From Pasteurella canis (lineage in GTDB: Bacteria > Pseudomonadota > Gammaproteobacteria > Enterobacterales > Pasteurellaceae): a stretch of 64,000 nucleotides of DNA. The stretch covers positions 1,178,001 to 1,242,000 of the forward strand of contig NZ_UGTV01000015.1 of assembly GCF_900454865.1 (NCBI RefSeq). Direction: 5' to 3'. Under the pieces are notes generated by a model that did not search any database, was not told where the DNA came from, and saw only the letters and a program-made list of their open reading frames with translations. How positions within the stretch are numbered: the first letter of the stretch is position 1; each line of letters begins with the position of its first letter. Below, in pieces: positions 35,994 through 62,504 of the stretch. Position numbers and translations under genes: made by a program.

Positions 35994-36533
35994 TTATTCT
36001 TCTAAAACAACATGACCAATGTAACCTAAATTACGATAACGTTGTGCATAATCAATACCATAACCTACCACAAACTCATCGGGAATAGTAAAGCCAACCC
36101 ACTCCACAGGAACCTCAACTTCACGACGAGATGGTTTATCAAGTAGAGTACAAATGGTAAGAGAAGCTGGATCGCGTAATTTCAAGATCTCACGTACTTT
36201 TTGTAAGGTATAGCCTGTATCAATAATATCTTCAACAATCAAAACATGTTCATCTCGAATATCACCATCTAAATCTTTACTGATTTTTACATCATGGTTA
36301 GTTGTCATTCCACTGCCATAGCTTGAAGTTGTCATAAATTCAATTTCAACTGGTAAATTAATTTCACGGACTAAATCCGCCATAAACATAAATGAACCAC
36401 GTAAAAGTCCAACAACGATCAATTTATCTACTGCTTTTTGTTGGTAATACTGCGTAATTTCACGACCAAGTTCTTGAATACGTGCACGAACTTTCTCTTC
36501 TGAGATTAAAATACCAACATGATGTTTTTTCAT
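35994..36533 (-). CDS. hpt: Hypoxanthine phosphoribosyltransferase
   Basis: 179 residues (E. coli Hpt 178). It salvages hypoxanthine (and guanine) to IMP/GMP using PRPP. The PRPP-binding motif is [14 protein letters not shown] (residues about 98-111), the flexible loop SSYGSGMTT, and the base-contact region [17 protein letters not shown]. It is transcribed from just beyond the terminator of the predicted sRNA and continues into gmhA. Confidence 0.94.
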
Positions 36534-36574
36534 TTTGTTTTACCTTATATAGGAATTGTAAAAATGCATTCTAC

Positions 36575-36707
36575 AAAAAAAAGGCTGAAGTTTAAACCTT
36601 CAGCCCACAAATACCCTAACGAATTTACTTTCTACTCTACCTGTTTGGAGTATGACCCTAACTGAAAACGACCTACTCTATCATTTCCAACCGAATCTCT
36701 AACAGAT
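36575..36707 (-). ncRNA. Predicted Fur-regulated small RNA (RyhB/HrrF class)
   Basis: No protein gene fits the 234-bp gap between pmbA and hpt. On the minus strand a -35/-10 pair overlapped by a Fur-box-like sequence predicts a start near 36707. The RNA would run about 130 nt to a GC-rich hairpin and eight U, the usual end of an Hfq-binding sRNA. Internally it has an imperfect duplication: TAGAGTAG occurs twice 41 nt apart (plus-strand 36632-36639 and 36673-36680), and GTTAGGGT twice 42 nt apart (36613-36620 and 36655-36662). Haemophilus influenzae has a Fur-regulated sRNA named HrrF. I cannot say whether this is its homologue. It could alternatively be an untranslated leader, but the terminator separates it from hpt. 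Confidence 0.65.
36583..36605 (-). terminator. Terminator of the predicted sRNA (and of pmbA)
   Basis: An 8-bp stem GGCTGAAG/CTTCAGCC around a 7-nt AT loop, followed on the minus strand by eight T. Confidence 0.88.
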
Positions 36708-36713
36708 GTGTGT

Positions 36714-36756
36714 ATCTTAGCAAATAATTCACTATTGTCAATAGGAATCATTCTCA
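36714..36756 (-). promoter_or_regulatory. Fur-box-like sequence over a minus-strand promoter
   Basis: Minus strand: -35 TTGACA (36736-36741), 16-bp spacer, -10 TAAGAT (36714-36719). GAGAATGATTCCTATTGAC, just upstream and overlapping the -35, matches the 19-bp Fur consensus at 12 positions by my alignment. Iron-loaded Fur would therefore repress it. Confidence 0.6.
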
Positions 36757-36767
36757 TTTTTAAAAAA

Positions 36768-38123
36768 TTAATCCCCTGATATTTTCAAACTTTCTACCAA
36801 AATTGATCCCGTTTGAATATTAGATCGATGCTCAATATCATCAGAGACAGCAATCAGATTACCTAACATTTCTTTCAATTGCCCTGCAATTGTAATTTCA
36901 GCCACAGGATATTGAATCTCACCATTTTCAATCCAAAAACCTGCGGCACCACGTGAATAGTCACCTGTCACTAAATTTACTCCCTGTCCCATTAGTTCAG
37001 TGACAAGTAACCCCGTTCCCATTTGACGTAATAAAGCTTGCAGTCCGCCCATTACATTGGGTTTCACTAGCCAATTATGGATACCACCAGCATGTCCTGT
37101 GCTTTGCATACCTAGTTTTTTACCACTATAACTGGTTAAAAGATAAGTTTGTAGAATCCCTTTTTCAATAATTTCACGACTCTGAGTACGTACCCCTTCA
37201 CTATCAAAAGGAGATGAGGCTAATTGCCCAATTAAATGTGGACGCTCACTGATCTGAAACCAATCGGGTAAGACTTGTTTGCCTAAATGATCTAATAAAA
37301 AACTGGCTTTACGATATAAACTTCCCCCACTAATTGCAGCAGCTAAATGACTAATTAAACCTGTTGCTACATCATTTATAAAGATAACGGGTACTTGTTG
37401 TGTAGCTAACTTCTGAGGTTGTAGGCGTGCTAACACTTTCTGTGCACAATTTTGTCCGACCCAATTAGCACTTTCTAAGTGGTTTATATTACGTGAAATA
37501 GTATATTCATAATCACGTTCTAATTGTTCTTCAGCACTAGCAATAACAGAACAAGAGAGGGAATAACGGCTTGATAAATAACTTTGCAACATACCATGGC
37601 TGTTACCATATACACGTACGCCACTATGTGAGTTAAATGCCGCACCTTCACTATTAACAATACGCTTATCATATTCTAAAGCGGCTTGTTCTGTTGTTAA
37701 AGCTAACTCTACCGCACGATCAACATCCATGTCTGCAGCATGGTATAAGTCTAGATTTGGTGCATCAAATGCCATTAATTCATGCGCAGCTAAACCTGCG
37801 CATTCATCAGGTGAAGTATGTTTAGCAATTGCTAATGCAGCCTCTACAGCATTTTTAATTGCATCATGGCTTAAATCAGAAGTAGAAGCATTACCTTTTT
37901 GATGCCCTAAATAGACAGAAATACCTAATGCCCCATCATTATTAAATTCAACATTTTCAATCTCTTGTAAGCGTGTTGACACAGATAAACCACTGACTTT
38001 AGTCACTGCCACTTCGGCCGTTGCGCCAGCTTTTTGTGCAATTTCGACTGCATAGCTCACAGCCTCCCTCAATTCTTGCTCTTGTTGCTGTAAAAGTGCG
38101 GTTGCTTTCTCAGTATTTTTCAT
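36768..38123 (-). CDS. pmbA: Metalloprotease PmbA/TldE
   Basis: 451 residues (E. coli 450), U62 family. With TldD it forms a heteromeric protease involved in maturation of modified peptides and CcdA degradation in E. coli. Conserved regions are [36 protein letters not shown], the [17 protein letters not shown] block and [29 protein letters not shown] near the end. TldD itself is not in the window. ATG 38123 has AAGGAATCA upstream; the frame could start six codons earlier only at TTG. An uptake core at 38094-38102 reads TALL. Confidence 0.94.
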
Positions 38124-38216
38124 ATTGATTCCTTCAAACAAATTTATGGCATTTTATCCTATTTTAGATTTTCATGCTAAAATGTTAGCTTATTTTTGTA
38201 AGAGAAAGGAAATAAA

Positions 38217-62335: not shown

Positions 62336-62412
62336 GGAGTGGTAGTTCAGCTGGTTAGAATACCTGCCTGTCACGCAGGGGGTCGCGGGTTCGAGTCCCG
62401 TCCATTCCGCCA
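62336..62412 (+). tRNA. tRNA-Asp (GTC)
   Basis: 77 nt with encoded CCA. Nearly identical to E. coli tRNA-Asp, anticodon GTC at 62370-62372, T-arm GGTTCGAGTCC. The acceptor stem GGAGTGG/CCATTCC has one G-U pair, unlike the second copy. Confidence 0.98.
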
Positions 62413-62427
62413 ATTTTATTCTACTAC

Positions 62428-62504
62428 GGAGCGGTAGTTCAGCTGGTTAGAATACCTGCCTGTCACGCAGGGGGTCGCGGGTTCGAGTCCCGTCCGTTCC
62501 GCCA
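62428..62504 (+). tRNA. tRNA-Asp (GTC), second copy
   Basis: 77 nt with encoded CCA, anticodon GTC at 62462-62464. It differs from the first copy only in the acceptor stem (GGAGCGG/CCGTTCC). 15 bp separate the two, so they share one transcript. Confidence 0.98.

Follow-up and report, generated by a model that had tools for sequence, protein, structure and literature searches.

A long-form hrrF gene between pmbA and hpt of Pasteurella canis, whose predicted hairpin loop is identical to the first bases of the conserved core

The RNA encoded between a pmbA-like and an hpt-like open reading frame (ORF) of Pasteurella canis is HrrF, as identified by covariance model, genomic position and core sequence. 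We analyzed a 64,000-nt stretch of contig NZ_UGTV01000015.1 (the window, within which all coordinates are counted), where the Rfam model RF02728 (HrrF) matched over its entire length (model positions 1-116 of 116) with 89.4 bits, against a curated cut-off of 77 bits (Table 1). With high confidence we therefore assign the locus to hrrF, which in Pasteurellaceae encodes a Fur-repressed small RNA, here of the long type of ∼133 nt. A first-pass annotation made from the sequence alone had proposed an HrrF-type small RNA between pmbA and hpt and had suggested comparing it with HrrF by covariance model; the full-length match, the position and the core all agree with that proposal, and the family-wide search returned matches in 97 of 140 genomes. 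The RNA family is already known and the Pasteurella version adds one member to it. The gene is settled as HrrF, and the picture of the family is sharpened. By analogy with its relatives, the window copy is presumably transcribed and controlled by iron.

When the whole window was scanned with cmscan, HrrF and two tRNAs reached the cut-off and no other family did; the RyhB model of Rfam gave no match at cut-off. The RF02728 search placed a single copy of hrrF in the P. canis genome. The window also contains two tandem tRNA-Asp genes, at 62336-62412 and 62428-62504. The RNA fits the pmbA-hpt position of HrrF, and its terminator lies 42 bases before the hpt-like ORF on the same strand. As for the earlier description of some 130 nt devoid of any ORF, no ORF of at least 40 codons starts inside the predicted RNA on the minus strand. 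A 41-codon ORF (36757-36632, minus) has its start ahead of the predicted 5' end of the RNA, and on the opposite strand an ORF of 48 codons (36519-36665) overlaps it.

Table 1. Features of the hrrF locus in the window.
Feature	Position	Strand	Basis or remark
pmbA-like ORF, upstream of hrrF	36768..38141 (start codon provisional)	minus	name from synteny and first-pass annotation
Fur-box-like block GAGAATGATTCCTATTGAC, overlaps -35	36737..36755	minus	12/19 to E. coli consensus
-35 hexamer TTGACA	36736..36741	minus	promoter scan
-10 hexamer TAAGAT, TG before it	36714..36719	minus	promoter scan
HrrF small RNA, long form	36577..36709	minus	RF02728 match; predicted 5' end 36709 or 36707, 3' end ∼36575
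Helix P1, 5' arm AUCUGUU	36701..36707	minus	predicted fold
Hairpin P2 of long form, lineage-variable, 11 pairs	36662..36690	minus	predicted fold
P2 loop AGAGUAG, identical to first seven core bases	36673..36679	minus	5/6 Pasteurella genomes
Helix P1, 3' arm AACAGGU	36639..36645	minus	predicted fold
Conserved core AGAGUAGAAAGUAAAUUCGUUAGGGUA	36612..36638	minus	within 7 edits in 95/97 Rfam-positive genomes
Intrinsic terminator	36575..36606	minus	stem-loop 36606-36582 (9 pairs) and eight T/U 36582-36575
hpt-like ORF, downstream of hrrF	35994..36533	minus	name from synteny and first-pass annotation

The matches in the 97 family genomes were counted at E <= 0.001, and 62 of them were above the cut-off. 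The matched locus was read in all 97, and the two matches in which the core was not found within 7 edits (L077 and L086) are probably false. An Hpt homologue could be placed in 138 of the 140 family genomes, and the hpt-upstream regions of Rfam-negative genomes yielded the core in 1 of 13 cases (L107). Our own model, built from 22 sequences, found 98 of the 140 genomes. Among its weakest matches, the one in G083 is doubtful and that in G097, which carries the 11-base AGAGTAGAAAG, perhaps so. For the counts given below, 111 sequences (110 loci and the window) were scanned for the core, and the 15 without it within 7 edits (the Rfam-positive L077 and L086, the 10-base filler L097 and 12 hpt-upstream regions) were dropped. 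The remaining 96 loci were used for the loop survey, the Fur scoring, the block count and the 8-mer repeat count.

Among 295 genomes of the order, 10 RF02728 matches were above the cut-off, all in Pasteurellaceae. Four of the weaker matches outside the family were read (G343, G385, G171 and G376), and none had a core within 7 edits. In one of these genomes (G385, locus L299) the weak Rfam match precedes a terminator and includes a 9-edit core match that keeps TAAATTCGTT; weak Rfam matches also occur in G211 and G269, which belong to the genus of G385. A search with the core pattern gave 76 stretches, some of them titled as coming from outside Pasteurellaceae, and by our own estimate some are expected by chance. 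One record titled Pseudomonas stutzeri NCTC11607 holds HrrF, and its title looks wrong when L132 is compared with L024, G128 and the Pasteurellaceae set.

We also considered whether the RNA could be a leader or attenuator of hpt instead of a free RNA. It lies on the same strand, with its terminator close ahead of hpt, as such an element would. However, four genomes (L128 and L182, both Actinobacillus, G054, G071) have the core directly after an ORF that by eye resembles pmbA, with hpt located elsewhere, and H. influenzae HrrF is described as a discrete ∼97-nt RNA in the text of PMC4144887. In the four genomes read, HrrF keeps its place next to pmbA even though hpt is not its neighbour. We regard the leader reading as extremely improbable. 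The Actinobacillus orthologue of HrrF (L128:2702-2719, L182:6592-6609, L036-L043), found behind pmbA, differs from the others in its core sequence and in its 5' domain. The eight Actinobacillus members scored 33.8 to 40.9 bits with Rfam and 77.1 to 83.8 with our own model, which was built with three of them; the Rfam cut-off of 77 is far above the scores of these members. Two further arrangements were seen. In G131 (L092; L305) the ORFs flanking an HrrF-like core resemble, by eye, Dps and PhnA, and the 3.3 kb read around it contained no pmbA-like ORF. In G064 (probably H. aegyptius NCTC8502) hpt is split into two pieces that overlap, of which one has an internal stop, ∼1 kb from hrrF.

The minus-strand promoter named in the first-pass annotation was found in place, with 10 of 12 consensus matches and a spacing of 16 (TTGACA-16-TAAGAT). 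Since the 701-base region contained 4 promoter-like sites versus 2.6 per shuffle, the promoter match is weak when taken alone. The GC-rich hairpin followed by eight U was likewise recovered, and here 1 terminator-like site was observed versus 0.2 per shuffle. The proposed Fur-box-like sequence was scored against the E. coli 19-mer consensus and reached 12/19 on the minus and 13/19 on the plus strand; such scores are attained at many places in the AT-rich window, so that the window box by itself is at chance level. The best Fur score upstream of the core was at least 12 in 94 of 96 loci versus 311 of 960 mononucleotide shuffles, and the block GAnAATnATTnnYATTGAC was found upstream of hrrF in 83 of the 96 loci, the other 13 being without the block as written.

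The predicted fold of the window RNA had a z-score of -2.70, with 2 of 200 shuffles equally stable. In the 29 selected sequences (alignment A1, all of other than Actinobacillus type), 100% of P1 cells were paired and 25 columns of the core were invariant; in 7 of the 29, a C-G pair of P1 is replaced by U-A. The window core, 27 bases long, is 1 edit from that of H. influenzae (L001), and behind P1 it is predicted to be unpaired save for a four-pair mini-hairpin that is itself absent from the centroid. Compared with Haemophilus, the long form has additional bases, which make up the predicted hairpin P2; 81.7% of P2 cells were paired on the 29-sequence alignment. The terminator reached 63.5% paired cells, as some rows of A1 are misaligned there; one sequence, L059, is cut inside the terminator, which bears on A1, the loop survey, the covariation test and the per-genus loop test. 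A further alignment, A3, comprised 22 sequences. The covariation evidence for the structure as a whole is mixed. None of 500 shuffles reached the observed share of paired cells or the covariation score. Two-sided changes, however, were seen in 11 pairs versus a shuffled mean of 9.8, and sliding the structure by +1 gave an identical covariation score, 0.160.

The first-pass annotation had noted two sequences that each occur twice, 41-42 nt apart, and had read the RNA body as two diverged copies of one unit. The repeats themselves are real. TAGAGTAG occurs at 36673-36680 and 36632-36639 (spacing 41) and GTTAGGGT at 36655-36662 and 36613-36620 (spacing 42). When the first 100 nt were shuffled 5000 times with dinucleotide composition kept, two 8-mer repeats with spacings within 2 of each other arose in 0.04%, by a criterion set post hoc, so the pattern in the window is unlikely to be due to chance; a single 8-mer repeat arose in 9.9% of the same number of shuffles. 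If the 5' domain were a segmental duplication of the core, the RNA would carry two equivalent target-pairing units, and aligning the 5' insert and the core locally did give p = 0.03 in the window and in P. oralis (uncorrected, 46 loci). Yet these were also the only two of the 96 loci in which both repeats occurred together, and in the other four Pasteurella genomes the alignment gave p = 0.10 to 0.60 (uncorrected). In addition, the second repeat lies partly inside helices, and the long forms of other genera have a hairpin without the repeats. The alignment used 46 of the 96 loci, and as the 5' end was set automatically, the inserts of L037, L056, L066, L068, L095 and L096 reach upstream of the RNA. 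Given repeats in 2 of 96 loci and weak insert-core alignments, we did not accept an old duplication, which we consider highly unlikely, and as a feature of the family it was rejected; the extra segment is a predicted hairpin.

What the hairpin does share with the core is its loop. AGAGUAG, the start of the core, forms the loop in five of six Pasteurella genomes, G106 being without it. Actinobacillus has a different hairpin at the 5' end, with the loop UUAGGGU in five of eight genomes, UUAGGG in two and UAGGG in one. The core of this genus reads UUAGGGUAAAAG where others read UAGAGUAGAAAG, and each Actinobacillus loop is contained in the same genome's own core. The loop UUAGGGU was also found in g21, a single genome. 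Taking one representative of each of 25 genera, we obtained 15 loops of at least 6 nt, from 14 genera, and found 3 full matches to the core (the window's genus, Actinobacillus and g21) versus 0.048 expected; leaving out the window's genus gave P = 0.044. The loops of Actinobacillus and g21 share one motif, so they may represent one event. Partial matches, of the GGUAG kind in some Aggregatibacter, G030 and Mesocricetibacter and GGGUA in Necropsobacter, were not significant.

The loop-core match hints at a second contact site, although it is suggestive only. A loop copy of the core motif might be selected as a second place of contact with target mRNAs or a protein, as the loop is identical among the five Pasteurella genomes while the stem varies, and as the Actinobacillus loops all lie within a core that is different from that of Pasteurella. 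On the other hand, the criterion of a full match of at least 6 nt was chosen after the fact, the shared motif of Actinobacillus and g21 perhaps counts once, and G106 lacks the loop. Moreover, 22 of 25 genera are without such a match or such a loop, and Aggregatibacter loops vary within the genus. We therefore hold a selected second contact site to be doubtful. Equally doubtful is the broader picture of a two-site regulator, in which the loop copy of long-form HrrF would follow changes in the core (AGAGUAG in Pasteurella, UUAGGGU in Actinobacillus), be kept in step by selection and either grip mRNAs at two places or bind one protein twice. More probably, the hairpin is variable and serves structure alone, for instance stability, and the match arose by chance or drift. 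The frequency of single 8-mer repeats in shuffles of the RNA body and the lack of a full loop-core match in most genera are consistent with this, whereas the persistence of the loop in Pasteurella and the parallel case in Actinobacillus are not readily explained by it. If the match were functional, it would offer a testable reason for the longer forms of HrrF. The sections and titles of the HrrF literature that we covered contain no mention of it.

We looked for pairing of the core with the starts of genes affected by HrrF in H. influenzae. There was no conserved pairing with the start of modA (20 genomes; z -1.84 to +2.03), asnC (19 genomes; some starts were picked automatically, and those of L295 and L297 look wrong) or asnA (20 genomes). 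For H. influenzae asnA, a reported target, no core pairing was seen (z = 0.01), and H. parainfluenzae and Rodentibacter likewise had z near 0. Overall the asnA results were mixed, as in Pasteurella the asnA duplex gave z -1.28 to -2.33 in five of six genomes and 0.06 in the sixth. The pairing site of P. canis itself is at -47; the other four of these five cover the start codon, and as the protein is conserved, coding constraint may explain them. One case was found in Mesocricetibacter (L286), upstream of one of two asnA copies, with 16 consecutive pairs to the core, two of them G-U, by hand count. This duplex had an energy of -25.9 kcal/mol, with a mean of -15.0 in shuffles (z = -3.77), and is one case among 59 tests. 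A -10-like sequence immediately precedes the 16-base complement.

For two motifs of the core, exact complements of 9 nt occurred 6 and 5 times in the P. canis genome, one of each being hrrF itself, versus 16 and 35 for the reversed patterns; composition may explain why the true complements are fewer. Two of the 9-mer sites shortly precede ORFs that by eye resemble xseB and lpxH, and shorter forms were found in two of six Pasteurella genomes each, P. canis and P. oralis. None of the asnA, modA, asnC, xseB-like or lpxH-like candidates was taken as a target.

HrrF was described in H. influenzae, in the pmbA-hpt gap, by Santana et al. 2014. According to the text of that paper (PMC4144887), it is Fur-repressed and raised by iron chelation, Hfq is dispensable for its stability, and it lowers modABC and raises asnA, asnC and nrdB; orthologues outside Haemophilus are ∼126 nt long, and the conserved core is placed at nt 29-64. 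In A. actinomycetemcomitans, the text of PMC5156373 reports that the homologue is up under iron restriction and that its promoter is bound by Fur, as a member of the direct Fur regulon. Fur control, the iron response and the effects on six genes have thus been shown by others, in relatives of P. canis. The first-pass annotation had expected an iron-sparing RNA that silences mRNAs of iron proteins, which does not match the six H. influenzae genes modABC, asnA, asnC and nrdB.

Family membership, position, a conserved control region, a predicted structure and a conserved core are what we found in the window. Together with the work on relatives, they are consistent with a model in which iron-loaded Fur, sitting on the box over the -35 hexamer, would block transcription of hrrF. 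As iron falls, HrrF would be made and would end at the intrinsic terminator. P1 would close the 5' domain and leave the core largely single-stranded, and the core may then act by base-pairing with mRNAs. The extra hairpin would be an arm that varies among lineages and that, in Pasteurella, carries the first core bases once more in its loop.

RyhB, PrrF and NrrF resemble HrrF in outline as Fur-repressed small RNAs made under iron shortage, but the text of PMC4144887 reports no sequence similarity between them and HrrF. H. influenzae HrrF and the window RNA are alike in pmbA-hpt position, -35 and -10 hexamers, Fur-box-like block, P1, core and intrinsic terminator, and differ in that the window RNA has a longer P2 with the loop AGAGUAG and is correspondingly ∼133 instead of ∼97 nt long; the core ends in GGGUA in the window and GGGUU in H. 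influenzae. The A. actinomycetemcomitans loci L022, L027 and L028 are long-form HrrF, like the window, although their loop is AUGGUAG or GGUA and has only GGUA(G) in common with the core. The A. actinomycetemcomitans strain studied in PMC5156373, whose homologue is iron-induced and Fur-bound according to that text, presumably carries the long form too.
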